Below, in pieces: positions 12,129-61,690 of a stretch of 64,000 nt of DNA. This stretch comes from Caldilineaceae bacterium (GTDB taxonomy: Bacteria; Chloroflexota; Anaerolineae; Caldilineales; Caldilineaceae): the NCBI GenBank assembly GCA_026645575.1, contig JAPKMW010000051.1:1-64000 (forward strand). The letters run 5' to 3'. Both the position numbers and the translations under genes were made by a program. Under the pieces are notes generated by a model, which saw nothing but the letters and a program-made list of their open reading frames with translations, was not told the DNA's origin and searched no databases. Every line of letters begins with the position of its first letter. Within the stretch, counting starts at the first letter, position 1.

Positions 12129-12200
12129 GGTAACTGCTTCACTCCTAGCCGCACCGACAAGGCGACCGGTGACCCGCTAGGAGCAAATTATGCAGTTACC
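12129..12200. repeat. TAGCC-type intergenic palindrome
   Basis: Nested inverted arms are visible: the outer GGTAACTGC (12129-12137) with GCAGTTACC (12192-12200), and the inner CTCCTAGC (12142-12149) with GCTAGGAG (12176-12183). It sits just upstream of uppS. It shares CTCCTAGCC with several other palindromes in the window but has a less perfect centre. Confidence 0.65.
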
Positions 12201-37237: not shown

Positions 37238-40200
37238 ATGGCGCCTTATCGGTTACTCAAGCACAAAGATTATGAGCGTACCGTTGCCAATTTACCAACC
37301 GCGATCCGCCGCAAGGCGGTTTGGGCGCAGGTTTTATTGGGTACGCGTGGCCGCACGCCTAGTGTCAAAGGCACGAATGGCTTTAACGCGCGCTGGCGCC
37401 GCACGCCTGTCCAGGGCAACCATTATTACATGTGGTGGATTCCCGGCAGTGAAAGCGGCCTGACCGACGCTCCCAACGACCGGCAAGACGACCATACCAT
37501 TCTCGTCCACTCCATTCGCCACCACGACGAGACCGACGATCCCATCTATCCGGGAGCGCTCACCGACTACGAAGAGGTCGCTATTGAGGCGCTCGACCCC
37601 CGCTACGAAGAACAGATCGAAGTCAGTGATCAAGTGCAACGCGATCAGGTTGCCCTGGCCACCATCAAGGGCTTGCCCGGCAGCGGTAAGACGATCTCGC
37701 TGCTCTACTTGGCGCGCGACCTGGCGGAGCGGCCCGACCTGCAACAGATTCTCTATATCACCTACACGCGCCGGCTCAAGCGGGCGGCCCAGGAATTCCT
37801 GCAAGGACAGGGTGACCCCATTTTTCAGAAGATTCGGGTGGCGACGTTGGGCGAGATCGAACAGCAACTTACTGATCTGCCGGCGCAACAGGAACCGTTT
37901 GGCGAGCTGCCCAACTTTCTGCGTTTCTTAGAATTTCAAAGCGCAGCGACCCTTGGCCCCTGGCGGCGTTACCCGCAGACGCTCTTTACCGAAATTCGCG
38001 CCCACCTGCTGGGGAAACTCTTCCCGGCTGAATATGAATTGCCCGATGCCCGTTTGAATGATTTGGTGCTATACCATGCCGGGCTGGATCCACGCACCTA
38101 TGCCGCCAATCGCGGGTTGGATTATCAAGCCGCCGAGGTCGCTTGTCGTCTGGCTGAACGGGCGCAGGAGAATCTGCTCTTCCAGGATCAAAAGGCGGCG
38201 CATGTTGCCATCCAACGGTTGCAAAAAGGCAAAAGCCCCCGCTGGGTTGCCAACCTTGATGCATTGGTGATTGACGAAGTGCAAGACCTCACCCTGCTCC
38301 AAATTGCTGTCTTGGGCGAACTGGTGCGCGAACGAATGCGCCGCCGTCCCGATACGCCGTTTGCCTTTGTCGTCGCCGGTGATGAATCGCAGATTGTCCA
38401 GCCCAGCGGCTTTGACTGGGGCGCCACCAAAGACCTACTGGGTGAGCAGGTGGGCATCTGGCCCGATGAATTTGAGTTCCATTACCAACGGCGCTCCCCA
38501 CGCAACCTGGCCCAGTTGATCGACAGCACCTGGAACTTTTACGGCAATCTGCCCCGTGGCCTGCGCCCCAGTGCGCGGCGCCAGGCCTTTGCCTATGAGA
38601 CCGTCGGCGACAACGCTACCGATGAAGGCAACGGTCAGGTCTTTCTCTGTTTGCCCAACCATGCCCCCGGCGCCGGCGCCGCCCAACAGGAGTGGCAGGC
38701 AGTGATCGACGAATTGGTGGATAAACCGGGCCGCGTCATCATCGATCTCACCGAAACCCTGCGCGCCACGCTGGCAACCCATTTAGGCTTTACCAACAGC
38801 GACGAGGTGATCTTTCTACCGCGTGAGATCAAGGGGTTGGAGCGCACCACGGTTCTGGTCTATGGCTTAAACGAACTTTATGAACGCGCACTGCGCTTTT
38901 GTCAGGAGAGCAGCGACAACATCGCCCGCTTTGAGGCGCGGCGGATCTTTGACGAAATTCGGGTAGCCCTTAGCCGTTCCACCGAGCGACTTATCTTGTT
39001 GGAAGCCGCCGACGCGCCGGTGCTGGCGGCGCTCAACGTGACTCAAATCCCAGGCATTCTCACCATCCGCTGGCCTGATCTGTTGGAGACGCTGCAAACT
39101 GAAGAGCTTTCTGCGCTGGAAGTGGTCGAAGGTTATTTGGACGAAGTTGATGATCTGTGGGAGCGGGGGCTGTGGGAACAGGGGTATCGGCGCAACCGGC
39201 GCGCCTATGACCTGGCTGTCCAGCTAGATGATTATGCGTTGCAACGGGAAGCGCAAGAGCAATATATTCTGGGTCATTTGCAGGAAGCCGAAAATTTGGT
39301 AGCGGCCCAGCAATGGCACGCTGCCCACGAGCGCAATCGTCAGGCCGCTCAGTTGACCGACGCCTTTGGTGATCCGCTCCTCCAAGATCAGGTGGAGGAT
39401 CAATATGCCGAACTGGGCCATGCCATTGCCGCTTATGTCGCCGGTCAACTCCAGGGAATTACGCAACAACTGAGTACGGGCCAATACCGCGCCGCCCATG
39501 GCGCTATTCAGCAAGTCCGCACGCTAGCTGCGTTCACCAATGAGCGCACCTTGCTCACGCAAGTGGATGAAAATGTGACCCGGATCGCCTGGCAGTGGGC
39601 GGCGCAGTTGCTCGATCAACCGGCGACGCCGGAAGTGGCCGAACGGGTCGCAACCCTCTTTAGCGAGGCGGGCCAAGCGTTGCTACGACAAGATGACGAC
39701 CTGGGTGCGCAAGTGTTGCGCCTCCTGGCCACGCGCTATCGCGAATTGCCGCCGCAGGAACGCTTCACCAGCCCGCAGATCGAAAATCTGTTGCAACGTA
39801 CACAGGCTTACCTGGCCCTGGTCAAACCGTTGCACTTAGAAGCGGATGCCTATATCTATGTCCGGCGCTGGTTGGATGAAGCCTTCCATCATCTCCCCCG
39901 TTACCCGATGCTCTACTACCGCTGGGCGATCATTGCCCAGGATTTTGCCGCCCGTAGTGACTACCTGCTTCTGGATGAACATCTGTGGGAACTGGAAAAC
40001 TATCTGGCGCTACAAGGGGGGCAGGGGCGCCAACCGGATGAAGAACGCGAAACCAAGCGCTTCCAAGCCTTTATTGCGGCCTATAATGAAACCCCGGCGC
40101 AGGCGTCCTTGCTCTGGGAAGAATTGGGCGAAATGGAACTGGCGATTACCAACGCCAGAGCCGCCGGCGACCTGGAACGGGCCTATGCGCTCCTGCGCCA

Positions 40201-40384
40201 AACCAAATCACCGATCCCCGAAGATCTGGCCGTAGCCGTAAAAACATTGCGCTTATTGCAACAGTTGACGCAAAAATACCAGGCGCTGCTACCGGCGGAA
40301 CGCCAAACTTTGCTGGCGGAGTTGACCAAAGTGAGCCAAGCAGTTGCCCAAGCAGACCAAACGGTTGAGGCAGAATTGTTATAA
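37238..40384 (+). CDS. Superfamily 1 helicase with RelE/ParE-like N-terminus
   Basis: The 1048-aa protein has three parts. Residues 1-100 resemble a RelE/ParE toxin fold: YRLLKHKDYERTVANLP, an Arg/Lys-rich middle, GNHYYMWWIP and ILVHSIRHHDET. Residues about 125-600 form a UvrD/Rep-like ATPase with Walker A KGLPGSGKTISLLYLA, Walker B LVIDEVQDLTLLQ, AGDESQI, YQRRSPRNLAQL and motif VI VALSRSTERLIL. The remaining about 440 residues are helical and TPR-like. Helicases fused to toxin-like N-termini are known in cyanobacteria and relatives. A repair or defence role is inferred; no partner gene is evident. Confidence 0.85.
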   Translation: MAPYRLLKHKDYERTVANLPTAIRRKAVWAQVLLGTRGRTPSVKGTNGFNARWRRTPVQGNHYYMWWIPGSESGLTDAPNDRQDDHTILVHSIRHHDETDDPIYPGALTDYEEVAIEALDPRYEEQIEVSDQVQRDQVALATIKGLPGSGKTISLLYLARDLAERPDLQQILYITYTRRLKRAAQEFLQGQGDPIFQKIRVATLGEIEQQLTDLPAQQEPFGELPNFLRFLEFQSAATLGPWRRYPQTLFTEIRAHLLGKLFPAEYELPDARLNDLVLYHAGLDPRTYAANRGLDYQAAEVACRLAERAQENLLFQDQKAAHVAIQRLQKGKSPRWVANLDALVIDEVQDLTLLQIAVLGELVRERMRRRPDTPFAFVVAGDESQIVQPSGFDWGATKDLLGEQVGIWPDEFEFHYQRRSPRNLAQLIDSTWNFYGNLPRGLRPSARRQAFAYETVGDNATDEGNGQVFLCLPNHAPGAGAAQQEWQAVIDELVDKPGRVIIDLTETLRATLATHLGFTNSDEVIFLPREIKGLERTTVLVYGLNELYERALRFCQESSDNIARFEARRIFDEIRVALSRSTERLILLEAADAPVLAALNVTQIPGILTIRWPDLLETLQTEELSALEVVEGYLDEVDDLWERGLWEQGYRRNRRAYDLAVQLDDYALQREAQEQYILGHLQEAENLVAAQQWHAAHERNRQAAQLTDAFGDPLLQDQVEDQYAELGHAIAAYVAGQLQGITQQLSTGQYRAAHGAIQQVRTLAAFTNERTLLTQVDENVTRIAWQWAAQLLDQPATPEVAERVATLFSEAGQALLRQDDDLGAQVLRLLATRYRELPPQERFTSPQIENLLQRTQAYLALVKPLHLEADAYIYVRRWLDEAFHHLPRYPMLYYRWAIIAQDFAARSDYLLLDEHLWELENYLALQGGQGRQPDEERETKRFQAFIAAYNETPAQASLLWEELGEMELAITNARAAGDLERAYALLRQTKSPIPEDLAVAVKTLRLLQQLTQKYQALLPAERQTLLAELTKVSQAVAQADQTVEAELL

Positions 40385-40439: not shown

Positions 40440-41546
40440 TCAAACAACCTCAATTCCGATCCCGTTAATCACCTCGCCGATCTCCCAACACGCTTGTTTA
40501 CCGGCGGCGCAATGGTTGCGAAAGGTCGTCACTTCACCATCTGGCACGGCCAACAGTAAGCCGCCACTCGTCTCCGCTTCCCATAGAATCGTGCGTTGGG
40601 CCGCTGTGACCGACGCAGCAAAATGGACACCCTGACCAAAATGGGCTGGGTTACGGGTGCTGCCACGGGTCAAATAACCGGCGGTCAGGTAATCCCACAC
40701 CCCAGGTAAGACCGGCACATCCGCCGCCCGAATGCGAAAACCGATGCCCTGTTCACGACTACCGGCGACCATCTCACTGCCATGGCCCAGGAGACCAAAG
40801 CCGGTAATATCGGTAGCCGCTGGCACGCTGGCCGCCCGTGCCGCTTGGGCCGCCACCCGGTTGAGTCGCAGCATCGACTGAATGGCCGCATCGAGGTGTT
40901 GACCGTTGAGGTCTGGTTTGCCTTGGGCGCGACGCGCCAGTCGGTGCGCCATTGTTTCGCCGCTGCCGGTCAGCTTGGCCGCCGTGGTGATCACCCCGGT
41001 GCCCAAGGGTTTGGTGAGAAAAAGGCGATCACCGGGACGGGCGCCGCCCTTGCGCATAATGCGGTCAGGATGGATCAGACCGGTGACGCTCAAGCCGTAG
41101 AAGGGTTCCGGGTTGGTGACTGTATGTCCACCCGCAATGGCCGCGCCGGCCTCACGCACCTTCGCCGCACCGCCGGCCAAAATCTGGACAATGGTTTCAG
41201 GGGCCAGCTCTTCAGGAAAGCCGGCAATGTTCAGGCAGAAGATCACCTCGCCGCCCATAGCATAGACATCGCTCATGGCATTGGTGGCGGCAATGGCGCC
41301 ATAAGTCCACGGATCATCAACGATAGGCGTAAAGAAATCTGTGGTTTTGATGAGCGCGCGCTCACTATCCAGCCGATAGACGGCGGCGTCGTCCGGTTCC
41401 CCCAGCCCCACCAACACATTGGGATATTCAGTTGCCGGGAATAACCCGGCCAGTTGTCGCACGACCTGCGATAATGTCCCCGGCGGGAGCTTGGAGGCTC
41501 AACCCGCGCAGGCGACCATCGCGGTCAAAGGTTGTTGATTGGTCAT
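40440..41546 (-). CDS. selD: Selenide, water dikinase SelD, selenocysteine-containing
   Basis: SelD makes selenophosphate from selenide and ATP. The open part (from 41462) has LVGLGEPDDAAVYRL, TTDFFTPIVDDPW, NAMSDVYAMGG and AGGHTVTNPEPFYG, all SelD hallmarks, but lacks the catalytic N-terminus. Extending upstream in frame gives MTNQQPLTAMVACAG, then TGA (41499-41501), then ASKLPPGTLSQVV. SelD proteins have Cys or Sec followed by xxK at exactly this position, so the TGA is read as selenocysteine. The full product is 368 aa from the ATG at 41546 (an ATG at 41552 is also in frame). A small hairpin (UCCC/GGGA around a 4-nt loop) lies 14-25 nt into the message after the UGA, where a bacterial SECIS is expected. 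A tRNA-Sec gene is 6 kb away. Confidence 0.93.
41499..41501 (-). other. In-frame UGA selenocysteine codon of selD
   Basis: TGA on the minus strand sits between CAG (Cys-Ala-Gly context ACAG) and ASKLPPGTL. In SelD this position is the redox-active Cys or Sec, with the conserved Lys three residues later present. Reading it as a stop would remove the catalytic N-terminus while leaving the frame open and conserved on both sides. Confidence 0.9.
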
Positions 41547-41556
41547 GCCCATAATA

Positions 41557-41608
41557 ATAGCGCAGATTTCCCGGCGCACCAACTGCGCCACTGTGAAATC
41601 TGCGCTAT
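41557..41608. promoter_or_regulatory. 14-bp hairpin immediately upstream of selD
   Basis: ATAGCGCAGATTTC (41557-41570) pairs perfectly with 41595-41608; the loop holds an inner GGCGCA/TGCGCC stem. On the plus strand it is followed by ATTTTTTG and looks like a terminator. On the minus strand it would form in the selD leader 5-10 nt before the start codon, where it could occlude translation. Which role applies is unknown. Confidence 0.65.
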
Positions 41609-41638: not shown

Positions 41639-41700
41639 GCTCCTAGCCGCGCCTAAAAGGCAAATGGGAGACCGGTTGCCTTTTAGGCGCGGCTAGGAGC
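41639..41700. repeat. 25-bp perfect TAGCC-type palindrome
   Basis: Arms GCTCCTAGCCGCGCCTAAAA(GGCAA) at 41639-41663 and the complement at 41676-41700 enclose a 12-nt loop. It lies after the stop of the small secreted protein gene, between it and selD. Confidence 0.85.
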
Positions 41701-41725: not shown

Positions 41726-42157
41726 TTACCGCAACGCCATCGGCATGAAAATCTGATGTCCGACAATCGACAGATCGGCCCGTACTACTGGTGTAACATC
41801 ATCAATAGTGACGACTAGCAGAAAGACCGCATCCGTGTCATGCTCCGTCCAAACTTGGTAGGTGCCAGCCGGCAGGCCTTCGGCGCTATACCCACCCACT
41901 TCATCGGTATAGACAACTAGGGTCATGGCAAAGTCGGGTTCGTCAATGCGTTGAATGTAAACCGGAATGTTCGCCAATGGTGATTCCTGCCCGTCCGGAT
42001 CGCCACTGCCATTGAAATCTACCCAAACCCGTCCCGTGATCATGTTTGGCACTTGGGTAAAGATCGGATCGGCGGCAAAGGCGCTCATGGGTATGGTGTT
42101 TATTAACGCAACCGTTAAGGTGAGTAACAGCAGTGTACGGGCAAAAATGCTTTTCAT
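41726..42157 (-). CDS. Small secreted protein with SdrD-B/carboxypeptidase-regulatory-like domain
   Basis: The 143-aa protein starts with a clear signal peptide (about residues 1-29, ending MSAFAA). One beta-sandwich domain follows with ITGRVWVDFNGSGDPDGQES, a Ca-binding-like Asp-rich loop, then DEVGGYSAEGLPAGTYQV, as in SdrD B-like repeats. It ends with a hydrophobic IFMPMALR tail, a style often seen on secreted Chloroflexota proteins. Surface or secreted structural function is inferred. Confidence 0.78.
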   Translation of the reverse strand: MKSIFARTLLLLTLTVALINTIPMSAFAADPIFTQVPNMITGRVWVDFNGSGDPDGQESPLANIPVYIQRIDEPDFAMTLVVYTDEVGGYSAEGLPAGTYQVWTEHDTDAVFLLVVTIDDVTPVVRADLSIVGHQIFMPMALR

Positions 42158-47483: not shown

Positions 47484-47491
47484 ATTCCAAG

Positions 47492-47587
47492 CGGGAAGGC
47501 GTGGGAGTCGAACCCACCGACGCCGACTCAGCGCCGCCGTCCACCAATTTTGAAGACTGGGACAGCCACCGGGCCATATCCCCTCCC
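47492..47587 (-). tRNA. selC: tRNA-Sec (anticodon UCA)
   Basis: This is the tRNA that decodes UGA as selenocysteine. Read on the minus strand, the acceptor strand GGGAGGGG (47587-47580) pairs with GCCTTCCC (7 of 8 pairs, G-G at the last). The D arm is ATGGCC-CGGT-GGCTGT, a 6-bp stem with a 4-nt loop, which is unique to tRNA-Sec. The anticodon stem is CCAGT/ATTGG with loop CTTCAAA, giving anticodon UCA (47553-47551). A long variable arm of about 25 nt follows, then T arm GTGGG-TTCGACT-CCCAC. The discriminator is G and CCA is not encoded. The acceptor plus T stems total 13 positions, as in bacterial tRNA-Sec. The exact ends could shift by 1-2 nt. Confidence 0.93.
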
Positions 47588-47795
47588 GCTGGGTATTGTA
47601 GCATAACTGTTGTTTCTTGGGTAGATTGGGGGCGCCCAATCACCATATCCATACCGGCTGTCCACAGGAATCGTAAGCTATCGGGGATATTTTTGTGATA
47701 ATTGGGATAGTCTGTTGTAATATTGGGTATAGAAAAATGACTGAAATGTTGATATACTATGGTTCCTGATTTGTTGGTGGAAAGGAGGTAGAAAC

Positions 47796-48691: not shown

Positions 48692-49444
48692 TTAAGAAAA
48701 GGCAGGGGAAAGCACTGGCACATTGACGACATTCACCATATCCCACCCCATGCCCTGACGATGTACCTCAAACCAGTGCGAGCGACGAAGGTGATCAACA
48801 GAGATAGTAAATTTCAGCGGGAAGAGTTCCGGCAAGCGTAGCAGATCGGAAAAAGGCATAGCTTCGGCACTGTGCGCTGTGGCGGCCACGGCCAACAGCC
48901 ATTCTTCAATGGCCAGCGACGAAGCCGTAAACGCCCGCCGTTGGGGGGCATAGGTCGCTGGTTGACCGGTGTCGGTTAAAACACCCCAGTCCCGCAGCGA
49001 GAAGAGAATGCGTTCGGTGGCCTTTTCCAGCGCGCCTAACTCGCCCAACTCGGCGATCATGCGCTTCTTGACATCCTTGGGCGTAAGCGTATCACAAAAG
49101 CGGCTCAATTGGCCGATGACAACCAGCCCTTGGCGGAAGAAGTCATAGGTCAGCATGGTCATGCCATAGTGCAACCAAAGGCGATCCGTCTGATTTTCGG
49201 TCTTTCGATAAAGGGCCAGCGCTTGCTGATGGAGTTGGGGATATGTCTCACCACTAGTGGCCCAAATCGTAAGTAGGATTTTTATGGCCACTTGGCGATT
49301 CTCCAGGCTTTTGACCTGCTGCTCGACCAGCACGTCTAGGCGTGTGCGGATGGTCTCTAGATCGTCGGTTTCGGTACGATAGGCAGCGACAGCGTCCATC
49401 CACGCCAGGTAGATGTTCCGGCGAAACCCAATGTGCTTTTCCAA
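48692..49444 (-). CDS. BREX-associated winged-helix accessory protein (brxA-like position)
   Basis: I do not firmly recognise this 250-aa protein. It is helical, with a block DRLWLHYGMTMLTYDFFRQG, then LTPKDVKKRMIAELGELGAL and ATERILFSLRDWGVLTD. The last resembles the small winged-helix BrxA (DUF1819)-type accessory proteins of BREX systems. It starts 20 bp after pglZ stops and is the last gene of the operon. It converges on the Panacea pair. The function inside BREX is inferred from position and pattern. Confidence 0.6.
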   Translation of the reverse strand: MEKHIGFRRNIYLAWMDAVAAYRTETDDLETIRTRLDVLVEQQVKSLENRQVAIKILLTIWATSGETYPQLHQQALALYRKTENQTDRLWLHYGMTMLTYDFFRQGLVVIGQLSRFCDTLTPKDVKKRMIAELGELGALEKATERILFSLRDWGVLTDTGQPATYAPQRRAFTASSLAIEEWLLAVAATAHSAEAMPFSDLLRLPELFPLKFTISVDHLRRSHWFEVHRQGMGWDMVNVVNVPVLSPAFS

Positions 49445-49463
49445 GAGTGGTATCCTTTATTTC

Positions 49464-51425
49464 CTACTTGCGCTGAATGATTACCAGCGGTGTCACCATC
49501 TCTTCAATGGTTAAGCCACCGTGGCTAACGACCTGTTGGCCGTTCAACGCAAAGGCGCCGTCTGTTTTGGGCAGTAAGACCCAACGGTCGGGAGGAAGCA
49601 GACCATCGTCATGCCACAAGATGGTATCAGGATACTGCGATTGGACATTGGATGCAAATTGCAGATTGCTATAAATGCGTGCTCGTTTACTGCGGCTTTC
49701 GACGGTGACACCCTCCTGTGGCACACCAATACCTACCGCATTGACGTGGCCGTGGTCACTGGCGATAACGACAGCATACTGTTCGCTCAGGAGCCGGTCA
49801 ATCAACCCCTCTAGCCAGGCTGAACCAGGGCGATCCGGCATTTGGTTGTGGAGCCAGATCGCGACCGAGGCATGAACATCAGCCAAACCCTGTGTCGCGC
49901 CATGCACCATCTCATCAATCACCGGCGTTACCAGACAGAGCGCCCGCATGGTGCGTTGGTCAAGCATCGCCGGATAGGCTTGTCCACTACGGTTAGGCAG
50001 CAGCGTATAGGCAATGCGGCGCGCGTCAAGCTCTTTCTGCATCCAAAACGTTTGCCACTGCTGCGCTTCCTGGCGATTGGTGGTTAATGTATCGCCAAAG
50101 CCGGCGGGTGGCAACCCGCTGATCAGCGCTTGGCGGGAAACTGCCGTGATGCTGGGAATTTGCGCCAGCAGTAACCGCTCGGTTAAGGCCCACGCGCCAC
50201 GACGCGCTTGCCACACCGGCTTGATCTGAAGCCAGGTAGCCAGGCTCATGCCATCCATGACCAGCAGAGCGACGCGCTGTTGCGGGGTCAGCAAGGTGGC
50301 CAGGTAACCGGGGACATGGAAAAGATGATGGGGCGTGGGCAGCCGTGAGCCGGCCAGGTGGCTATAGGCCATCTTGAGCCAACTGGCAAAAGCCGCGTTT
50401 AGCGCCAGTTGTTGCTGATAAAATTGGTTGTGGAGTGGCGAATTAGCCGAGAGCAGCGCACCGGTGTAATAACCCAGGGTCAACTGCGCCCAACGCCAGG
50501 CGATGGCTTGCCAATCCGACCAGCGCAGGTTGTTTGCCTGGAGCCGTTCCGTGATGTCCTGCAAGCCTTCGTCCAGTTCAACCGTTTGGGCCGCAGTGGC
50601 ATCGTAGGCGATGGCCGGGGCGGCCCAAGCCGGCGTTTCGGCAAGCCGGCGAACGGTGGCCGTTGGCTTAAGAATGCCCAGTCGCACCAGGCGTGGTATG
50701 GCATCTTGCAACAGGGTATCGGTGGCAAAGGCGAGCATGGGGGGCATTGTTTGATAAACAGGTTGTCCACTCAGTTCGGCCAGGTACGCTTGCCACGCCG
50801 ACTGCACAAAGCGGTAGAAGCTTTCCCGCTCTGTGAGCAGATCAGCCAGCGGCCATCCAGCAAAGGCAGCCGCCGGTGTTACCTGTTGCCGCCAATAAGT
50901 CGCCAGCACAGTGGGCATGGTTTCATGGTGCGCATGGTACTCAGCCAGCCAACTGATCAAGGCGCTGGCGGTTTGTAGCTCGGTAGGTACACAAGCAAAG
51001 AGATGGCGAAGCAAATAGTCACAGGTGGCGTGTACGGAGAGGGGCTGGCGCACTGGCGTCTGCGCCAGGGCGGCCGCCAGCCGACTGCGTTGCGCGGGTG
51101 CGAGTGTTTTGATCGTTGGGTAATCGAGATTGGGGAAGAGACGGTGTAACGCCAGTTCGACATGATGGGCCTGTTGCCAGAGGTCATAGGGGGCGCGGTT
51201 GAGTTCGTCGGCAATGACAACCACGAGCGGCGCGGCTATCGTAACCGGTTGCGTGCGGCTGTAGCCATAGCGCAGCGCCACCGGGTCGCTTGCCACCAGC
51301 AGGCGAAAGCCACGGGTGTACAGGGCCGCCGTAACCGCTTCATCGGCCAGCAGACCGTCGGGATCGGCGACCAGGGTCAACGCATGGGTGTGTGGCGGGA
51401 AATGGTGGAGAAGCTGATCAAGCAT
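49464..51425 (-). CDS. pglZ: BREX system phosphatase-like protein PglZ
   Basis: The 653-aa protein has the PglZ/alkaline-phosphatase domain in its C-terminal half. VALLVMDGMSLATWLQIKP carries the metal-binding Asp and nucleophile region, SITAVSRQALISGLPP follows, and YAVVIASDHGHVNAVG gives the Asp-His-His metal site. The N-terminal 350 residues are helical. I take the ATG at 51425 (MLDQLLHH); the in-frame TTG at 51440 is an alternative. PglZ is the defining protein of BREX anti-phage systems. It lies between HicA and the accessory gene. Confidence 0.88.
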   Translation of the reverse strand: MLDQLLHHFPPHTHALTLVADPDGLLADEAVTAALYTRGFRLLVASDPVALRYGYSRTQPVTIAAPLVVVIADELNRAPYDLWQQAHHVELALHRLFPNLDYPTIKTLAPAQRSRLAAALAQTPVRQPLSVHATCDYLLRHLFACVPTELQTASALISWLAEYHAHHETMPTVLATYWRQQVTPAAAFAGWPLADLLTERESFYRFVQSAWQAYLAELSGQPVYQTMPPMLAFATDTLLQDAIPRLVRLGILKPTATVRRLAETPAWAAPAIAYDATAAQTVELDEGLQDITERLQANNLRWSDWQAIAWRWAQLTLGYYTGALLSANSPLHNQFYQQQLALNAAFASWLKMAYSHLAGSRLPTPHHLFHVPGYLATLLTPQQRVALLVMDGMSLATWLQIKPVWQARRGAWALTERLLLAQIPSITAVSRQALISGLPPAGFGDTLTTNRQEAQQWQTFWMQKELDARRIAYTLLPNRSGQAYPAMLDQRTMRALCLVTPVIDEMVHGATQGLADVHASVAIWLHNQMPDRPGSAWLEGLIDRLLSEQYAVVIASDHGHVNAVGIGVPQEGVTVESRSKRARIYSNLQFASNVQSQYPDTILWHDDGLLPPDRWVLLPKTDGAFALNGQQVVSHGGLTIEEMVTPLVIIQRK

Positions 51426-51466
51426 AGGTAAAGCTGACAATGGCTTGGTCGCTCATGGAAAAGTGT

Positions 51467-51691
51467 TTAAAGGTTGTCTTGCAATTCTTCACGAGAAAGT
51501 TCGCAGTCACGCAGAATCTGCGCCAGTAACCCCCGACCAATGGTTTCACCACGATGTACCGGCACAACTGTACTTCGTCCATCTGCATGACGTAGGAAAT
51601 GATGACTTCCTTTGATTCGGATCACCTCAAAGCCTACTTTACGCAAGGTCTTGATTAATTGCGCACCGGTTATGGCAGGAAAGGTACTCAT
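51467..51691 (-). CDS. hicA: HicA-family mRNA interferase toxin
   Basis: The 74-aa protein matches HicA: PAITGAQLIKTLRKVGFEVI, the catalytic His in RIKGSHHFLRH, STVVPVHRGETIGRG and a C-terminal ILRDCELSREEL. HicA is a double-stranded-RNA-binding-fold RNase that cleaves mRNA. Its ATG overlaps the hicB stop by 4 bp. It sits inside the BREX-like operon, between pglX and pglZ. Confidence 0.93.
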   Translation of the reverse strand: MSTFPAITGAQLIKTLRKVGFEVIRIKGSHHFLRHADGRSTVVPVHRGETIGRGLLAQILRDCELSREELQDNL

Positions 51692-51897
51692 GCCGTGACC
51701 GCCACCCGCTGGACGCCAACGAACTCGCTCGTCACTGGCTCTTCAACTTCCAGGCAAAGCTCAATGGCTTCCTTGATTCGTTTCATCAAGAGATCCAAGG
51801 AGCGCGCTTGGGTGTGACAGCCACGTAAGGCCGGCACCCACGCGACAAAGTACCCATCTTCATCTTTCTCAATCACCACACTAAATTCGCGTGTCAT
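51688..51897 (-). CDS. hicB: HicB-family antitoxin
   Basis: The 69-aa protein has the HicB partial RNase-H fold: FSVVIEKDEDGYFVAWVPAL, RGCHTQARSLDLLMKRIKEAIEL and VEEPV. It neutralises HicA. No DNA-binding C-terminal domain is present in this short form. It lies 140 bp after pglX and overlaps hicA by 4 bp. Confidence 0.92.
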   Translation of the reverse strand: MTREFSVVIEKDEDGYFVAWVPALRGCHTQARSLDLLMKRIKEAIELCLEVEEPVTSEFVGVQRVAVTA

Positions 51898-52040
51898 TTT
51901 GCCTGCCTTTCGGACACTTTGCTCTACTTGTGGTCATTCTTAAATCATAGCACAAGTGCAGCCTTTGTGCTAGAAACCGTCTTGCCTCACCCTAATGAGG
52001 CACACCGAGCTTACATATACCAATCTTTGTCTAGCCTTTC

Positions 52041-54743
52041 TTACCCCACCCGCAAACTGGCGTTATCATAATACATCAACAATTCAGGGTCTTCCTGCAA
52101 GACCTGTTCGGGCAGGCGTTCGGCGACTTCGACGATGGTGGCGTAGTCGCGTTCGTGCCAGGCATGGGAGAAGCCGGCGCGCACGGCTTCGCTGCGGAAT
52201 TGGCGCAATTTCTTCTTGCTTTCCTTGTACTGGGCAAATTCACGCAAGAGGCCACGCAGCCGCAGTTTCTCCAAGTCCCCGGCACGGTCGGGATCGGGGA
52301 CATACCAGCGCCCCTCGTCATCCGGCAAAAAGTTTTGTTCCAGCAGCACCCGCAAATCGGGCAGATCCTCGTGGCGGGCCTGGTGTAACTCTTGGAGAAA
52401 GCGAGGTTGGATCTGTTGGAAGCTTTGCGGTTCAGCCTGTAGTTGGTGACGCAGCCAGGTAATGGCGCTCTTTTCGTCGTTGACAAAGAGGCTCAGTTGG
52501 GCGACGGCTCCCAGTTCCGCCCGTGCTTTTTCATATTGGGCGATCTGGTCAGGCAAGAAGTACATGCCATCCGCTTTGGCAAAATATTGATCCAGTCCAG
52601 CATAAAATTGGGCTGCCCCCATCGGCACGGCGATCCCACGCTGAATGTGATAGGCGACCATGCGATCAAAGAGCAGGTAGTTCTGCCGTTCGGCCACCGT
52701 CTCCAATATCCCATTGTTCACCACCACTGGCGGCACCTGGGCCAGATGTTGCCGGACAAAGTCCCAAACGCCCGTCGTTGTACCGGCATGAGAGAGAAAT
52801 TGTTGCTCAAAGGCTGTGGTCGGTTTATAGGCAGAGATAATCAGATCCTGCTTTGCCGCGTCAGAAGTAACCTGCCGGTATGAACCTTGTTGTTTATCTA
52901 ATGTACGCACATCCGCAACTACAAAACCAACGGACATAAGGGCTTCTTGAATAGCGCGCCAAACACTGTCATGGCTGTTGTGGAATTCTACCGTCATCCA
53001 ACGTCCTGGTTTTAAGGCGGTGTAATAGCATTGAAAGCAGGCGCGCATCAAGGTTTGGTATTCATACAGTCGCTTCTTCTTCATCCGATCAATAATGGCT
53101 TCAGACACGCTGTTGGTCCAAATTCGGTGCCATGATTCCACAAGATAATTCAGATCGGCATAGTAAATATTTTCTCCAAAAGGCGGATCAGTAAAGATGT
53201 AATCAAGGCTATTGGCAGGCAATTGCACTGCGGTTGTGGATTGAGTCGTTGTGATTGTGGCGACATGTTGAGTTTTCAAATAGCCAAATGCTTTTATAAG
53301 TCGTTCAGACTTGCCATCTAAAATATACCAAGGCGATACTTCGGCAATCTGCGATCCAACATAATAAACGCCGCTCAAATAACGATTAACTTGTGAAAAG
53401 TGAGTGGGACCGTACCGATTGAGCAACGACATTCCCCATATAGCTTGCTCAAAGGCAAAAAAGAGCATATTCCGTAATCGATAAAGATTTACATTGGACG
53501 CCTTTGTCCATAACGTATTCAGCGAATGCAGTGGCCGCTTGAGGAAAAGGTGATGGATATGAGTAAATCCTTTGGGAGCAAGGCGAGAGCCATGATACAT
53601 TTTCTCAATTGGAAACGAATTAGTAGGGAAACCATCTGGCAAACTTAGCTCATTGATCTGTCGAAGAATAGAAAGATCTGATTCGTTCAATTCATGTTGT
53701 TGTTTACGATCTTGAATCGAATAATTTACAAAGCATGGTACAAACTTAATACGCTGATGTGTTTGATAAAGATAATGGTCAAGGTATGTCTCAAAGGATC
53801 TGTCCAAACTACGCTTATCTTGTAACGCGCCACATTGTTTACACTGAAATTCGCCTGCCACCTTCAGCGCATCTAGGTCTAATGCCTCTTCAACAAAAAT
53901 GATCTCATGCCCACACGATGAACAGGTAAAAACCTCACTCCAAACTGTATAGTCAATCCGCGCTTTTGTCTTGCCATCTGTATGTTGAGTCTCATACATC
54001 CACCCACACTCATCCTCGACCTCCTGCAAAATGCGCTTGGCTTCGCGCTCAAAGGCCGCCACGTCAACCGGCGTGTTGTAGTTATAGGCAATAAAGGTGG
54101 CGGCGGGTGACAGGTCATTGAGTACGGCTTTGCGCGCGCCCAGGCGGGCAATTGCCTTGCCGTTGTCGTAGATCGTGCCATCGGCAGCGACCTGATAACC
54201 CAGACTCTCCACCGTCTTGCGGTCGCCACAAAGTTGGGCAGCCACACCGGTCATCCCCGTGCCGCAGAAGCCATCAAAGACAATGTCGCCCGGCTCGGTG
54301 TAGTGGAGGATGTAGCGCATGATCGCCTTATGCGGCACCTTGGTGTGGTAGGAATGGGCGTTGTAGATGGGATCATTTTTGCCTTCGGAGACATCGGCGG
54401 CAAAGGGTTCGCGGTGATAAGTTTCGTCACTTAATCCCAAGTTGGCATGGCGCGCCGCCCGTTCGGCTTGCCACTCGGCCATAATCTGGGGCAAAAAGGG
54501 ATTGGGGCAGGCGGTGTAATAAGGCGGGTCGGAGAGGGCCAGAATATCTTCATCGGCGCCAAGGGGAAAGCCTTCAATGGCACGGAATGTCGGATCTTGT
54601 AAATATTCGCGCAACCGGGCTGTGAAGTAAGCCCGACGTTCTGCTTCGTCGGCAAAGGTCAGGCCGAGACAAGTCATGGGGCCGCTATGAATGGTAGTTC
54701 CGGCTGTGCGCAGCAGTTCCGGTTGGATGAGCGTTTCCGTCAT
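52041..54743 (-). CDS. pglX: BREX-type adenine-specific DNA methyltransferase
   Basis: The 900-aa protein has SAM motif I DIVFDGFCGTGMTGVAA near residue 150 and catalytic motif IV DYIFTDPPFGENIYYADL near residue 510, an order typical of large N6-adenine/DUF1156-like methyltransferases (PglXI class of BREX type 3). A zinc-binding insert with FTCSSCGHEI and FQCKQCGALQ lies around residues 275-305. It should mark host DNA so that BREX does not act on it. It is flanked by two toxin-antitoxin pairs within the operon. Confidence 0.88.
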   Translation of the reverse strand: MTETLIQPELLRTAGTTIHSGPMTCLGLTFADEAERRAYFTARLREYLQDPTFRAIEGFPLGADEDILALSDPPYYTACPNPFLPQIMAEWQAERAARHANLGLSDETYHREPFAADVSEGKNDPIYNAHSYHTKVPHKAIMRYILHYTEPGDIVFDGFCGTGMTGVAAQLCGDRKTVESLGYQVAADGTIYDNGKAIARLGARKAVLNDLSPAATFIAYNYNTPVDVAAFEREAKRILQEVEDECGWMYETQHTDGKTKARIDYTVWSEVFTCSSCGHEIIFVEEALDLDALKVAGEFQCKQCGALQDKRSLDRSFETYLDHYLYQTHQRIKFVPCFVNYSIQDRKQQHELNESDLSILRQINELSLPDGFPTNSFPIEKMYHGSRLAPKGFTHIHHLFLKRPLHSLNTLWTKASNVNLYRLRNMLFFAFEQAIWGMSLLNRYGPTHFSQVNRYLSGVYYVGSQIAEVSPWYILDGKSERLIKAFGYLKTQHVATITTTQSTTAVQLPANSLDYIFTDPPFGENIYYADLNYLVESWHRIWTNSVSEAIIDRMKKKRLYEYQTLMRACFQCYYTALKPGRWMTVEFHNSHDSVWRAIQEALMSVGFVVADVRTLDKQQGSYRQVTSDAAKQDLIISAYKPTTAFEQQFLSHAGTTTGVWDFVRQHLAQVPPVVVNNGILETVAERQNYLLFDRMVAYHIQRGIAVPMGAAQFYAGLDQYFAKADGMYFLPDQIAQYEKARAELGAVAQLSLFVNDEKSAITWLRHQLQAEPQSFQQIQPRFLQELHQARHEDLPDLRVLLEQNFLPDDEGRWYVPDPDRAGDLEKLRLRGLLREFAQYKESKKKLRQFRSEAVRAGFSHAWHERDYATIVEVAERLPEQVLQEDPELLMYYDNASLRVG

Positions 54744-54760
54744 GAATATGCTTTCGTTGC

Positions 54761-55132
54761 TTATCGGGCAAGGAGGGGTAAGCGGCGCATCCGCTGCCGT
54801 TGTTCATCCACGGTCACCACCGCCCCTAATTCTAATTCTTCGCTCCACGCTCCCATCACAGTGATCAGCAGCGCAACCAGGGCATCGGCTTTCAACCCTT
54901 CCCGCCGGATGCGCACCACGGAAGGCGCTTGCGCACCGGATAAGGCCAGGAGAGCATGAAAATCGGCATCCAGGGTAACGATGACCCGTTGGTCGGTACG
55001 GCCGCGTGCCAAAATTTCAAGATCCTCAGCCATCGCCATCCCGATATCGCCCACATGCAGCGTATCAATCCCCAGGGTGGTTAACTGTGTCGCCGCCGAG
55101 CGCGGTAGACCTTGATCGAGGAGCAATTTCAT
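54761..55132 (-). CDS. DUF5615 PIN-like toxin
   Basis: The 123-aa protein has the PIN-like layout: KLLLDQGLPRSAATQLTTLG at the N-terminus (first Asp), DTLHVGDIGMAMAEDLEIL, and VIVTLDADFHALLALSG (central Asp pair). DUF5615 proteins are predicted RNases paired with DUF433 antitoxins. Its ATG overlaps the DUF433 stop by 4 bp. It lies 17 bp before pglX in the same direction, inside the BREX-like operon. Confidence 0.9.
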   Translation of the reverse strand: MKLLLDQGLPRSAATQLTTLGIDTLHVGDIGMAMAEDLEILARGRTDQRVIVTLDADFHALLALSGAQAPSVVRIRREGLKADALVALLITVMGAWSEELELGAVVTVDEQRQRMRRLPLLAR

Positions 55133-55353
55133 GAGGCGAGGACAACACTGCGATCTTCTAGATAGGAAGCAACATAGGCCAACGCCTGGCGAATATCTTC
55201 CTCTTCCAATTCAGGATATTCGCGTTGCAATTCAGCACGGTCCGGGTAGGCGGACAACAACTCGATGACACGCCGCACGGTCAAACGTAGATTGCGGATA
55301 CAAGGCTGCCCATTCATGCGCGCTGGATTGATGGTAATGCGGTCGAATTTCAT
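55129..55353 (-). CDS. DUF433 antitoxin
   Basis: The 74-aa protein is a DUF433 member: FDRITINPARMNGQPCIRNL, LTVRRVIELLSAYPDR, YPELEEEDIRQALAYVASYLE. The ATG at 55353 is fixed by a strong GGAGGTGAT 5 nt upstream; an in-frame start at 55446 would overlap the brxC end and has no site. It pairs with the DUF5615 toxin and sits between brxC and pglX. Confidence 0.92.
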   Translation of the reverse strand: MKFDRITINPARMNGQPCIRNLRLTVRRVIELLSAYPDRAELQREYPELEEEDIRQALAYVASYLEDRSVVLAS

Positions 55354-55442
55354 AAGATCACCTCCCCGTGCATTCTCGCATAGATTGCCCTGTTCGTCAA
55401 CGCATGGCGGCATTTCGGCGGGTTTAAACTGCTCAATTCTGG

Positions 55443-58400
55443 TCATTCCTCGATCATCAGGCGCGTGTTGACCTCGTCATGGCCGCGCATTTGCTGCTGG
55501 ATATAGCGCCGGAAGCGACTTTCCAATTCATGGACAGTGCAGGGTAGCCCGCCATGCTTGAGCGCCGCCAGCAAGTCGGTGACGACAAGCCGCTCCGTCT
55601 GTAACCCACGCAAAACCTGGTTCGCGGCTGGCACAAGGCCCGTTGGCAGGGTGCTTTGGGCCGGCTCGGCTAACGCCAAATAGTCATCTAATGGCTTGCG
55701 CTCTCTTGGGGTCATGGCCGCCATACTTTGCCGTGCTGTATCGCTGGCCAGGGCCGCGCGCAGACCGCCATGCCATTGGTCGGCCAGGGTTTGTAACCGA
55801 TTGCTCAATACGGCCAACCGCTCGGCTGCCGGCTGTGTCCCCGCACCAATGGCCCGTAGCCGACAATGGGGACAGGTGGGAGTATTGGCTAACAAGCCGG
55901 CATGAAATTCGGCACAGGTTGGTATCGTATTGATCGCACCCTCCCAAGCGGTTAACTCGTTTGCATTGAGAATGTCGATTTGAGCGAGTTGGCGGAGGTG
56001 GGCATAGGGCAGCGAACGCTTCAGTTGCGCAATCGTGTCAATCCCCTCCGGCCCTAAGACAAGCTGCTGGTGATACGCCACATAGTGGGTGCTATAGCGC
56101 TGCTTCAGTTGCTCCAGGGTTCGTTGCCAATCGGCAATGGCCCCTGTACCTGACGGGGTGGCATCCCCTTTCGCCATCGCCCGCAATTCATTGAGTAACT
56201 GCTCTTTGCGCTTTTGGGCTTCCTGCACCCACTCATGCTCTGGCGGCAGATTGGCGCTGCCTTCACTCAGGTAGCCGGTAATGGACTGTAACTGGGCGAC
56301 GGCCTCAACGACACCCCTAATCCGCTGGACGGCCTTGCGATAGGTCAGCGCCTCCTGAATATCCAGCGCCGTCAGGGCCAAATTGCGTAGCTTGCCGGCG
56401 CGGTCATAGCGACTGAGCTTCTCCAAAAAATCTTTGGTGGCCCGCAAGGCCGGCAGTAGATCGGTTGTACTGAGGCTGACGGCAGCCAACGGCGAGTGAC
56501 TGACGACGGCACCACTTTGGGTGCGCAGTTCAAGCCGGTCGGTAAAGAGGGGACTATTCCACAGGGTAAAGCCCCGTTGGACGCTATCCTGCAAGGTCAC
56601 AACCTCGCGCACCTCACGCTGTACCAACTGTAATAAGTCACGCACTGCTTGGTCACGCGTACTCTCTTCACGGATCAAGCTGCTCTGTAAGCCCAGACCA
56701 TCAAAAATCTGCTGCCAAAGGGCGAGGGGCAGCCCACGCGGGCGTTTGTAGAAACGGAACTCGCACAGATCTTCAATCGCACGGGTGCTGGCCCGCTCGA
56801 CGGTGGCGGCATCCAGTTCATCCGTACCCCCCAGGCTAAGGACAAGTTGGCCATCATAGACCAAAGCCACTAGCAGCACCGCGACCCACTCTGGCTCCAA
56901 TTGGAAGTGCGGCTCCTTGTAAATCGGCGTTAGTCCACCGGCCACTTGGATCAACACTTCGCTATAATTGACGACTTGCGTTTCACCCTTGGCTAGCAGC
57001 AGTTGCAGCAACTGTGCGGCGTAGGGCGAGGCGAGGGGTTTCACCCGTTCGTCGCTGTCCAGCAACTGCAAGCCCTGTAAGATATTGATCGCCATGTTGG
57101 TGCGTTGGCGTCCGGCGATCAACCGAATGGCCTCCATTGCATTGACCGGACGCGCTCTTTCACTAATCGGTTCACGCACATTGGTAAAGGCGGGGTAGTT
57201 CGGGTACTTATCACCAAAATTCGGTTCCAACAGATGGGCGGCAATCAGGCGCAACACTTCCTGAATGCCTTGGCTGGCGCTACTACGTGTGGCGGCCAAC
57301 ACTTCGGGAAAGGTGTGCGTCACCCCGCGGTAGGTCACTCGCATCCGACTGGCGCTGTTTTCCTCCAGCCAGCGGCGTAATCGGCGGGCATAGCCGTCGG
57401 CTTTATCCTCGTAATCGTGGGCGTGGACGGGCGACTGCTGGGCCATTGCCTTCGCGCCCCCATAGTTGCGGACCAGCCCTTCCATCTCGCTGTCGATGCC
57501 AGCCAAGTGGTAAATTAGATCATCCGGTTCGATCCCGTCATTGCGTAAATCGATGGGGAGTGTGCCAGGCGTACTAAAAGGGGGCAGCATATACAGATAA
57601 AAATCGAGCGGCGGTTGGGCTGTGCTGCGCTCATTCGGCAAGCCAAAGAAGAGATAGCCCGGTCGGGTGACATTCTTGGGCAACCACGGCAGTTCATAGG
57701 GCCAAATCCGATAGCCGGGAACATGGGTGCTTGCCGGCAATTCCGTAAAGATCTGGCGCAACACCTCAAAAAAGTACCGGTTGAGATCGTCTTTATCCAG
57801 GAATTCACCGCGCCGGGCAATATTGGCATCAAAGTCAATGGTCTTTTTTAGGTCGAGGTAATATTGGCCATTGTCTTCATTGAGTGAAATGTATTGGCCG
57901 CTGACCGTGCGCATGATCTCGCGTAACGCCACTTGAACCGTGCTTGCCAGGAATTGGGCATCGGCCTCCGGTAACATTGTCCAGAGGCAAAGCTTGTCGC
58001 GCAATTCTTCAATGGTCATCCCCAGGGGCGTGTTAATGTCACTGGTGGTGAGACGATGCACACTGAGGGCATAGATAATCCGTTGAGCCAGAGACATTAA
58101 ATTGCGGCGTGTATAAGCGCTCTCAACCCGTCCTGCCAACACATTGCTCTTCTCGACTACATCAACAACGCCGGGCAGGGTGCGCAGGCTGGGGTTCTCT
58201 TTGATCATGCCCCAGTAATGATCAAAGGAGATCAGCCCGGTCTGATCGGTTGGCACCTCCTGCTCCAAAACCCCACGGATGGCCGTTTCAAAGGTTTTGA
58301 GCACCTCACGTTGCTCGGCAATGTAGACCTGCTCAAAGGTTTCAATATAGGCCGGATGAATGGGGAAAAGCCGGGCATAGCTGTCGAGGTTATCGGCCAA

Positions 58401-59252
58401 GAGCGGATAAAGGGGGGTAAAGCGCCGGAGATGGTCGGTAATGCGCGCCAGTTGCCAATCGGTCTTGCGCAGTAACCGTTCTGCGACGACAAAGGCAATA
58501 TCTTCACGGGCAATGCGTACCTGCTCAAAGCGGTCGCGCACCCGGCGCAATTGGTCTGCCACAAAGGCAAAGCGTGGGCTATCAAAGAGCGATTCCTGTA
58601 CGCCGCTAATAAAGCGAAAGGCGGTTAATTCCGTCACTTCCCCCAGTTCCCGCAGAAAGCCCAGATCCAGGATTAAGGCCCGTTCATCGCGTGAACGCAG
58701 GTAATCCAGCAATTCATCCAGCACAAAGAGGATACCTTGCCCTGGATAGCGTTGCCGAAAGCCATCCACCGCGGCAATCAGCGCATCTTTGTTATTGGTC
58801 ACCTGATCGGCGCTGGGGAAGGGATAGGGTGTCCCCACTTCCTCCAGAAACAGTTCCAACTGCTCCAGCACACTGTCACGCAACGGCCGCGTGCCGCCGC
58901 CAAGCTCAGTGCGCACGACTTTGAAGGTGCCGGCGACAGGTTGTAAGGCGCGCCGCACTCGTTCATTTTTCAACTCTTCGACCAGGTCTGCGTGTTCGGC
59001 GACGGCAGACAGGACGGACATTAAATGCGACTTCCCTGTGCCGTAATTGCCGACCACCATAATCCCTTTATTATCGGTGGGCCGATCCAAGCGCAAGTGG
59101 GGAATCACAACTTCGGCTAGCTTCTCAGCCATCCGTTCCGAGACTACATAGGTCTCGACCAGGTGGCGCGCCTTCTGCTTATCGCTGACTTCGCGTAGCT
59201 GGATAATTGTTTCCAGCGGTTCATAGGTGACTAATTCACGATAGCGCATCAT
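55443..59252 (-). CDS. brxC: BREX ATPase BrxC/PglY-like (DUF6079)
   Basis: The 1269-aa P-loop ATPase has an N-terminal VTYEPLETIIQLREVSDK, then Walker A MVVGNYGTGKSHLMSVLSAV near residue 68 and a Walker B-like ILFVLDELLDYLRS near residue 180. Long helical regions follow. A CPHC/C zinc motif (TCAEFHAG and TPTCPHCRLR) lies near residue 1115. It matches the BrxC/PglY large ATPases of BREX type 3. It starts 15 bp after brxF stops. Confidence 0.9.
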   Translation of the reverse strand: MMRYRELVTYEPLETIIQLREVSDKQKARHLVETYVVSERMAEKLAEVVIPHLRLDRPTDNKGIMVVGNYGTGKSHLMSVLSAVAEHADLVEELKNERVRRALQPVAGTFKVVRTELGGGTRPLRDSVLEQLELFLEEVGTPYPFPSADQVTNNKDALIAAVDGFRQRYPGQGILFVLDELLDYLRSRDERALILDLGFLRELGEVTELTAFRFISGVQESLFDSPRFAFVADQLRRVRDRFEQVRIAREDIAFVVAERLLRKTDWQLARITDHLRRFTPLYPLLADNLDSYARLFPIHPAYIETFEQVYIAEQREVLKTFETAIRGVLEQEVPTDQTGLISFDHYWGMIKENPSLRTLPGVVDVVEKSNVLAGRVESAYTRRNLMSLAQRIIYALSVHRLTTSDINTPLGMTIEELRDKLCLWTMLPEADAQFLASTVQVALREIMRTVSGQYISLNEDNGQYYLDLKKTIDFDANIARRGEFLDKDDLNRYFFEVLRQIFTELPASTHVPGYRIWPYELPWLPKNVTRPGYLFFGLPNERSTAQPPLDFYLYMLPPFSTPGTLPIDLRNDGIEPDDLIYHLAGIDSEMEGLVRNYGGAKAMAQQSPVHAHDYEDKADGYARRLRRWLEENSASRMRVTYRGVTHTFPEVLAATRSSASQGIQEVLRLIAAHLLEPNFGDKYPNYPAFTNVREPISERARPVNAMEAIRLIAGRQRTNMAINILQGLQLLDSDERVKPLASPYAAQLLQLLLAKGETQVVNYSEVLIQVAGGLTPIYKEPHFQLEPEWVAVLLVALVYDGQLVLSLGGTDELDAATVERASTRAIEDLCEFRFYKRPRGLPLALWQQIFDGLGLQSSLIREESTRDQAVRDLLQLVQREVREVVTLQDSVQRGFTLWNSPLFTDRLELRTQSGAVVSHSPLAAVSLSTTDLLPALRATKDFLEKLSRYDRAGKLRNLALTALDIQEALTYRKAVQRIRGVVEAVAQLQSITGYLSEGSANLPPEHEWVQEAQKRKEQLLNELRAMAKGDATPSGTGAIADWQRTLEQLKQRYSTHYVAYHQQLVLGPEGIDTIAQLKRSLPYAHLRQLAQIDILNANELTAWEGAINTIPTCAEFHAGLLANTPTCPHCRLRAIGAGTQPAAERLAVLSNRLQTLADQWHGGLRAALASDTARQSMAAMTPRERKPLDDYLALAEPAQSTLPTGLVPAANQVLRGLQTERLVVTDLLAALKHGGLPCTVHELESRFRRYIQQQMRGHDEVNTRLMIEE

Positions 59253-60006: not shown

Positions 60007-61690
60007 TTAGTCCATATCTGCATCATAAAGCGTAAGGGCGTCTTTGTAGGCATCCTCTAACGGAATACCGCTATCCACACCCGGCTGCACCCGCTTGAAG
60101 CCCACATACATCAAGCACATCATTTGCAAGCCGGAGAAGCTTTCGCCGGGCAGAAAGCGCAAGGTGTACTTTGGCTCATTGGAGGCATAGTCCAAGCCTG
60201 TGTAGCCCACCAGGGCAATTTCACCAACAATCTGGTAGACCTGAGCATCACTCATCTGGGCAAAGCGTTTCATAGCGCTGACCATATACATCGTGGCGGC
60301 CATTTGTACCGCTGGATCTTGCAGCAATCGGGGATTGGTGGGGCCGCCTTCGTCGCCGACCGGTCGGGTGCTGCTTGCATAGCCCTGTGGCAAGTCATCG
60401 GTATCGGGCAACCATTTGTACCAATCGGTTAGTTTCAATTCGCGGGCGAAGGCATCCACCAGAAGATATTCGTCACCGGGCCGGAAGTTCTTCATGGCCT
60501 GTTGCCAAAGGGCATAGAGACGCTGACCGGTGGATAAGAGGCCGGTGGCGCGATAATGGGCTGCTAAATCGGTGGCGCCGTTGAACAAATCATCCACAAA
60601 CAGCACGACCGCCGCATTCATGACCACATTGGCTTGATAAATTTTCTTGGGCGCGATGCTGCGGATGGCGGTGTCGGTCAACACTGCCAGATTCCGCTCG
60701 TGTTCATCGGCCAGCCAGGTGAATTCACTGTCGTGCAAGAAGGGGTACTTCTCGTGAACACGACTGTCGATGATCATATCGAGCGGCGCATTATAGAGTT
60801 GGTTGCATAGGCCACGCACCAGGCGCTGAATCACTTCATCAATCATCTGCGGGCTAAGATCCCGGCGCTTGTGGAGATGGCGAATATCTTTGTCAAGGAT
60901 GGCGTAGACCACCCGCTCGGTGTTCTGGTCGGTGGCAAAGTGGAGATTGCGCTGGGCTGCTCGCGCCTCTTGGGCAAGGAGGGCGTGTTCAAATTCATGG
61001 GCAATCAGATATGGCAAGCCAACAGCGTTTTTATCGGTGTTATACCGGATCACATGGGCGGCACGGCCATAGCGCCAGGCTAACTCAATTTTTGCCGTGG
61101 TTTCAAGGCTACGGTCTTCTTGTAGCCGCACCTGATAACCGCTTGCCTTGCTGTAGGCAACCAAAACTTGACGCATCTGTACCATGAGTGGCTCATGGTT
61201 CTGCTCAGCCCGTCGCCGTCGAATGTTGCGGTAGAGGGAGCGGGCTTGCTGATAGACCGGCTGATGCCGTGGATCTTCGGATTCAGGGGATGCAAATAAC
61301 CCTTCCAGCAGCGCCAGGGCTTCGTCCAGTTCACCCAGTTGCTGGTGAATCAGCGCCAAGCCGTGCTGGGCGTTGGGGAATGGGGCGCCTGTTCAAGCGC
61401 TTTGGTCAGCAAGGCCCGCGCCCGATCATACTCGCCGCGCATCCCTTCCACACCACCATAGCTCGTGAGGACATAAGGGTCATTCGGCGCCAAGTCCAGC
61501 GCACTTTCAAAGTAGCGCGCGGCTGAACCTAAATCCTTTTCCGCCTGGGCATAGAGGTTGCCCATGATCAGGTAAGCCCACGCATCATTGGGGTCTAGCT
61601 GCATCACACGAATGAGTTGCTTTTTAGCGGCGGCGGCGCTGCCGGTCTCCATCAGGGCCATCGCCAGTTCACGGCGGGCCTCGGTAAGGA
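60007..61690 (-). pseudogene. TPR-containing zinc metallopeptidase-like gene, frameshifted and 5'-truncated
   Basis: The larger frame (60007-61359) encodes a TPR end, then a domain with GLPYLIAHEFEHALLAQEAR (HEFEH zinc-protease motif). About 300 further residues include a second possible metal-ligand region (DMIIDSRVHEKYPFLHD). The preceding TPR repeats (LDPNDAWAYLIMGNLYAQAE, LAPNDPYVLTSYGGVEG) lie in another frame ending around 61370. Adding one base in the GGGG run at 61382-61385 would join ALEQAP to FPNAQHGLALIHQQLGEL. The 5' end is replaced at about 61690 by the Rpn-like ORF. Two lesions make it a likely pseudogene; a sequencing error could explain the first. Confidence 0.75.

Follow-up and report, generated by a model that had tools for sequence, protein, structure and literature searches.

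A predicted selenocysteine-containing SelD in a Caldilineaceae-like Chloroflexota genome, and two positions of a SECIS-type hairpin among its relatives

Introduction

Within the window (the whole stretch of 64,000 nucleotides that was analysed), the minus-strand frame 41546..40440 runs from an ATG to a terminal TGA over 369 codons, stop included, and contains one internal stop only, a TGA at codon 16 (41501-41499). The locus raises the question of whether this TGA ends or precedes a gene, or is instead a codon read as selenocysteine (Sec) within selD, the gene for selenide, water dikinase (selenophosphate synthetase). An initial annotation of the same DNA had proposed the latter; its observation was confirmed here, and its interpretation is supported. 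We conclude that selD of this Caldilineaceae-like Chloroflexota genome almost certainly encodes a Sec-containing SelD, with the UGA read by way of SelB, tRNA-Sec and a hairpin in the mRNA.

Results and Discussion

The selD frame and its in-frame TGA

When read through, selD (40440..41546, minus strand, ATG at 41546) encodes 368 residues with a predicted Sec at residue 16. The product matches TIGR00476 at 353 bits (cut-off 125) and NF002098 at 322.3 bits (cut-off 299), contains the AIRS and AIRS_C domains by profile match, and has the selenide, water dikinase 3u0o as its best solved structure (E 2.9e-67). The start at 41546 is supported by the relative L004, whose lead, MSRQKPLTAQVACAGU, is of equal length, and in the relatives L001, L002, L003 and L005 an ATG likewise lies no more than a few codons away from it. 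The open reading frame listed under translation table 11 is 41462..40440, with a GTG start and 340 aa. As the initial annotation had stated, this GTG at 41462 is the first start codon after the TGA, 28 residues in.

The TGA (41499..41501, minus strand) stands at the catalytic Cys/Sec position of SelD in the context VACAG-U-ASKLPPG, which bears out the earlier claim about its place. Its counterparts in solved structures are the first Cys of AGCGCK (3u0o) and the Cys of GCAAK (2yye), such that U-A-S-K of the window corresponds to C-G-C-K and C-A-A-K, respectively, in the N-terminal loop. A Cys or Sec, followed by a Lys, are the residues with a role in this loop of SelD. Alignment of the extended N-terminus had been proposed as a check, and the extended part does align with solved SelD as well as with 61 other loci.

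Across 62 Chloroflexota selD loci (the window, 12 relatives, 29 loci from a search of the phylum and 20 fetched by place, with L043 left out as the same gene as L001), 51 show TGA at the aligned codon, 11 encode Cys there, and no third residue occurs; 10 of the 20 loci fetched by place were picked for having no TGA, and hence 10 of the 11 Cys genes were selected in this way. A codon that is only ever TGA or Cys in 62 loci argues that the TGA is not there by chance. Among the 12 relatives, which were obtained by a scan of genome contigs, 11 have TGA at the aligned codon and one (L011) has Cys. The five closest of them (L001-L005), in records named Caldilineaceae or Litorilinea, share 67-76% identity with the window protein in the best segment. 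The placement of the window's genome as Caldilineaceae-like is based on its SelD only. The frame upstream of the TGA had been described as open and conserved, and over 12 codons it is indeed conserved as protein in these close relatives: L003 has three third-position changes relative to the window and zero residue changes, while the other four vary from it by 2-4 residues.

A SECIS-type hairpin downstream of the UGA

A predicted bacterial SECIS hairpin, UCGCA-GGUCG-UGCGA, is located at 41457..41471 (minus strand). It starts 28 nt after the TGA, at positions 31-45 counted from the U of the UGA, and its pair probabilities are 0.945-0.991. Its spacing of 32 nt from UGA to loop, its loop GGUCG and its 5-bp stem fit the published rule for bacterial SECIS elements, which in the available portion of PMC13188914 places the loop 16-37 nt after the UGA with a G among the first two loop positions, and asks for at least 4 bp. 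The hairpin has an energy of -5.2 kcal/mol, or -5.8 kcal/mol as the best fold of 25 nt, while the corresponding hairpins of L001 and L003 reach -11.6 and -9.5 kcal/mol. It is weak because a synonymous TTA (TTG or CTG in L001-L005) gives an A.C mismatch in the stem. Taken by itself, the hairpin (-5.2 to -5.8 kcal/mol) would miss a SECIS energy cut-off of -7.5 kcal/mol; the 55-nt fold is at -16 kcal/mol.

Folding of the sequence after the UGA had also been proposed as a check: the fold of the single sequence is nothing unusual, and the hairpin is supported by comparison across relatives. Single-sequence folding was accordingly set aside as proof of a SECIS, with stretches of 55 nt (z 0.07) and 70 nt (z 1.30) folding no better than shuffles. 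A 140-nt stretch around the TGA does fold better than shuffles (z -2.9), but as another structure.

For the comparison, 1000 synonymous recodings with pooled codon use served as the control. All five distal pairs are present in 28 of the 51 TGA genes, compared to 4.6 +/- 2.0 (maximum 12) in recodings, and 22 of the 51 are without two or more of the five pairs; among the Cys genes, the complete hairpin is found in 0 of 11, with 0.26 expected. When paired cells are counted over seven columns, the TGA genes have 243 of 357 against 179 +/- 7 in recodings, and sliding the partner by 1-3 columns yields 102-188. The Cys genes have 46 of 77 paired cells against 39.3 +/- 3.1 (maximum 49), a weak excess, meaning that they are not wholly free of hairpin signal and that their contrast with the TGA genes is not clean. 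Every one of the six genes in the clade that includes the window has a complete distal hairpin, against 0.36 +/- 0.58 in recodings. The stems UCGCA/UGCGA, GCGCA/UGCGC and CUGCA/UGCAG vary on both sides with pairing kept. The best hairpin in range beats 95% of recodings in 36 of the 51 TGA genes and in two of the 11 Cys genes (L011 and L074; p 0.0017 between groups), with the window, at 0.057, below that 95% mark; related genes are non-independent, so the recoding tests overstate significance. A SECIS-type hairpin is thus favoured by synonymous codon choice.

If Sec is inserted, the working SECIS of the window could instead be a weak proximal hairpin, UCCC-GCCG-GGGA (41477..41488, minus strand). 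At -5.3 kcal/mol it is the best unbroken hairpin in a scan of the window (unbroken stems, loops of 3-8 nt, spacings of 13-37 nt), and all TGA genes of one related clade carry a proximal hairpin. We consider it unlikely to be the working element here, as only 14 nt separate its loop from the UGA, below the minimum of 16 nt in the 16-37 nt range given in the available portion of PMC13188914, and 0.057 of recodings produce a hairpin as good. The distal hairpin, by comparison, is complete in 6/6 genes of the window's own clade, far above recodings. The proximal hairpin of the window would be largely set by the LPPG codons, and the distal hairpin remains our candidate SECIS for this gene.

Two hairpin positions among Chloroflexota selD genes

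A complete five-pair proximal hairpin (columns 15-19/25-29), of the type GGGGC-CGGGU-GCCCU and with a UGA-loop spacing of 16 nt, is present in 17 of the 51 TGA genes compared to 3.9 +/- 1.8 (maximum 11) in recodings. Only one of these 17, L071, has the distal hairpin complete as well. A clade of 15 selD genes (support 99) consists of 14 TGA genes and the Cys gene L074; the proximal hairpin is found in 14/14 of its TGA genes (1.7 +/- 1.2, maximum 7, in recodings) and the distal hairpin in none. In L074 (genome G241), which encodes a Cys-SelD, the proximal stem is kept and the loop reads CAGGC in place of CGGGC, so that its first G is gone. Judged from its sequence, the L074 hairpin is possibly a fossil SECIS; the accessible part of PMC1794560 describes SECIS-like remnants in Cys homologues belonging to other families.

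On the selD tree, a quick one in which 17 of 59 inner branches are open, the two hairpin classes require 2 changes if the remaining genes are disregarded; in this labelling, done by hand for 16 proximal genes, seven TGA genes belong to neither class. We favour, with some reservation, the explanation that the SECIS of Chloroflexota selD changed place, its loop lying 32 nt after the UGA in many lineages and 16 nt after it in one clade. A change of place around one fixed UGA would mean that SECIS elements can arise and disappear while the reading frame stays the same. No relocation of a SECIS inside selD was found in the literature searched, which included the available portions of PMC13188914, PMC4561486, PMC1794560 and PMC12013277, and one may be in print.

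Selenocysteine machinery and other selenoproteins

A tRNA-Sec gene with anticodon TCA is located at 47491..47588 (minus strand), 5.9 kb from selD, as identified by ARAGORN and by Rfam RF01852 (63.6 bits, E 1.3e-10). In the proposed mechanism, SelB would bind the mRNA hairpin 28-42 nt after the UGA and, so recruited, bring the tRNA-Sec that decodes UGA codon 16 as selenocysteine. The Sec would then be part of the selenide-handling N-terminal loop and be used in catalysis. The predicted product is selenophosphate, the selenium donor for SelA, and SelD would in this way require Sec for its own synthesis while making what Sec requires.

Neither selA nor selB was found among the window ORFs scanned against NCBIfam (a selection from ORFs of at least 180 aa). 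In the genomes of the 12 relatives, selB is over cut-off in 11, the miss being G004, and selA likewise in 11 (G011 included), the miss being G008, in which a fragment ends at a contig edge. The Rfam cut-off for tRNA-Sec is passed in 11 of the 12 and ARAGORN confirms 10, calling the Rfam match of G009 a tRNA-Ser and the best candidate of G004 a tRNA-Leu; by Rfam and ARAGORN together, tRNA-Sec was not found in G004 (a 3.1-Mb assembly) or in G009. The selA model also passes in 20/20 further TGA-selD genomes searched (of 39) and in 9/10 Cys-selD genomes (L073-L082). We infer that the strain from which the window derives carries selA and selB.

A role of SelD in serving tRNA selenouridine was considered and rejected, as no MnmH was over cut-off in 22 genomes (12 relatives and 10 Cys-selD genomes), five of which have weak matches below it, in line with the accessible part of PMC1794560, where the Chloroflexi then sequenced are reported to be without the selenouridine trait.

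For 9 of the 12 relatives, the matches listed include members of the formate dehydrogenase family that contain a single internal TGA. Four such genes (L093, L094, L097 and L098) have the internal TGA in the context CR[AT]-U-HAP, which we take to resemble that of Sec-containing formate dehydrogenase. These four likely encode further selenoproteins, and genomes of this kind thus probably have others besides SelD. In the gap around tRNA-Sec of the window, with TGA read as Sec, inspection by eye revealed no clear second selenoprotein. A 2006 count for Chloroflexi, as given in the available text of PMC1794560, was three selenoproteins in three families.

Database annotation and the shorter reading of selD

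The initial annotation had predicted that automatic gene calls would miss the active end of this protein, and the mis-call is real. The protein database search scored 7999 candidates, and all figures given here rest on the best 120 of these. Among the best 120 of 7999, 119 proteins begin beyond the TGA and are 324-350 aa long, and 108 have their start at the codon corresponding to the GTG of the window. The sole full-length protein among the best 120, P0082 (371 aa), carries Cys. Two entries that NCBI names 'selenide, water dikinase SelD [Caldilineaceae bacterium]' (P0024 and P0039) both start after the TGA. The GTG chosen as start by gene callers (41460..41462, minus strand) yields a 340-residue SelD without the active-site loop, and the predicted SECIS loop ends on the first base of this codon. 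According to the available portion of PMC4561486, misannotation is the usual fate of selenoprotein genes. With 119 of the best 120 proteins lacking the active end, surveys of predicted proteins miss Sec use here.

These 119 of the best 120 of 7999 entries in effect assume that the TGA is a real stop and that a shorter 340-residue SelD is made from the GTG at 41462, which is preceded by an AGG, though only 2 nt away. Such a protein would lack both the Cys/Sec residue and the loop around it, the codons preceding the TGA show conservation at the protein level, and 11 relatives with Cys instead of TGA read straight through; we regard the shorter product as very improbable. Even less credible is the view that TGA is reassigned (e.g., to Trp or Gly), that the sequence is in error or that the gene has recently lost its function; this view has nothing in its favour beyond the TGA itself and is opposed by the use of TGA as terminal codon in 6 of 28 window genes checked, by TGA or Cys but never Trp or Gly at 61 other loci, and by the tRNA-Sec in the window. 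The six genes for which TGA is an ordinary stop include selD, as well as frr and mutS2, both of which match their family models to the end; that the other 27 window genes are without an internal stop is true by construction of the ORF listing and is no evidence. Decoding of the internal TGA as Sec is thus the reading that we retain.

Sec-SelD and Cys-SelD in the phylum

Of 400 genomes sampled from the phylum to which G001 belongs, 360 gave matches at E <= 0.001, many of which are weak. In the best 150 selD matches listed, exactly one TGA is present in 140 and none in 10, a split that was counted by eye, with the TGA position checked in 40 of the 140 and G312 present twice. The 150 are ranked by likeness to the window query and this favours genes like it, so Cys-SelD is probably under-counted and the true TGA share may be lower. 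As far as these sequences indicate, Chloroflexota looks rich in Sec-SelD; among SelD genes detected in reference prokaryotes, 19% encode Sec, always at the same position, according to the available part of Mariotti 2015 (PMC4561486).

The Cys-SelD genes of Chloroflexota (L011 and L073-L082) represent the same gene; they have a Cys codon where the window has the predicted Sec in the alignment, and unlike the window gene they are all without a complete distal hairpin. Sec and Cys require 6 changes on the selD tree, of which 5 are forced by well-supported branches. The TGA gene L086 falls within a clade of Cys genes (L075, L076, L077 and L080) with support 100 and open inner forks. This placement may reflect several losses of Sec or one regain from Cys.

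Surroundings of selD and tRNA-Sec

Between the gene ending at 41726 and selD lies a perfect 25-bp inverted repeat with a 12-nt gap (41639-41700, minus strand), around which 76 nt fold at -54 kcal/mol (z -8.9) with no T run after. An exact search with 21 nt of one arm did not find it in 104 loci; a copy of the arm with 3 mismatches is present at 12142-12162. A second hairpin (41557-41608, minus strand; 14-bp perfect arms and an inner stem; -33 kcal/mol, z -6.9) ends 10 nt upstream of the selD ATG, an interval that contains no clear ribosome-binding site. Its arm was likewise not found in 104 loci by exact search, and it could be a regulator of selD or a repeat.

A 1048-aa ORF between recF and selD (37238-40384, plus strand) has marginal helicase-like PADLOC hits (E 8e-4) and no NCBIfam match; by eye it resembles a P-loop helicase. 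About 1.1 kb from tRNA-Sec are BREX-type defence genes (48692-59252, minus strand) encoding BrxA, PglZ (NF033449, BREX-3, 458 bits), a PglX/PglXI methyltransferase and BrxC/DUF6079. For a 450-aa ORF beside them (60007-61359, minus strand), NCBIfam, Pfam and PADLOC all gave no match at E 0.001.

Comparison with known systems

Sec-containing SelD/SPS proteins of Pasteurellales and Clostridia, and eukaryotic SPS2, are the same enzyme as that of the window, with the same Sec position and UGA codon. In bacterial Sec-SelD the SECIS is in frame just downstream of the UGA, as in the window; lineage, hairpin spacing and hairpin strength differ. The SECIS of E. coli fdhF, which we take to contain a GCAGGUC core with a GGU loop, has both of these in common with the window hairpin. 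The fdhF hairpin is nearer to its UGA. The 32 nt between UGA and loop in the window is near the upper end of the 16-37 nt given in the available portion of PMC13188914. Bacterial SECIS elements of Sec-SelD genes are reported in the supplement of PMC4561486, according to the part of that paper available.

Conclusions

Sec-containing SelD is already well known, and the window selD adds a Chloroflexota instance. Three matters are worth following: the frequency of TGA-containing selD in the phylum, the shortened database entries and the apparent move of the SECIS. Routine annotation loses the active end of this protein, and the two hairpin positions in selD amount to a natural experiment on SECIS movement.
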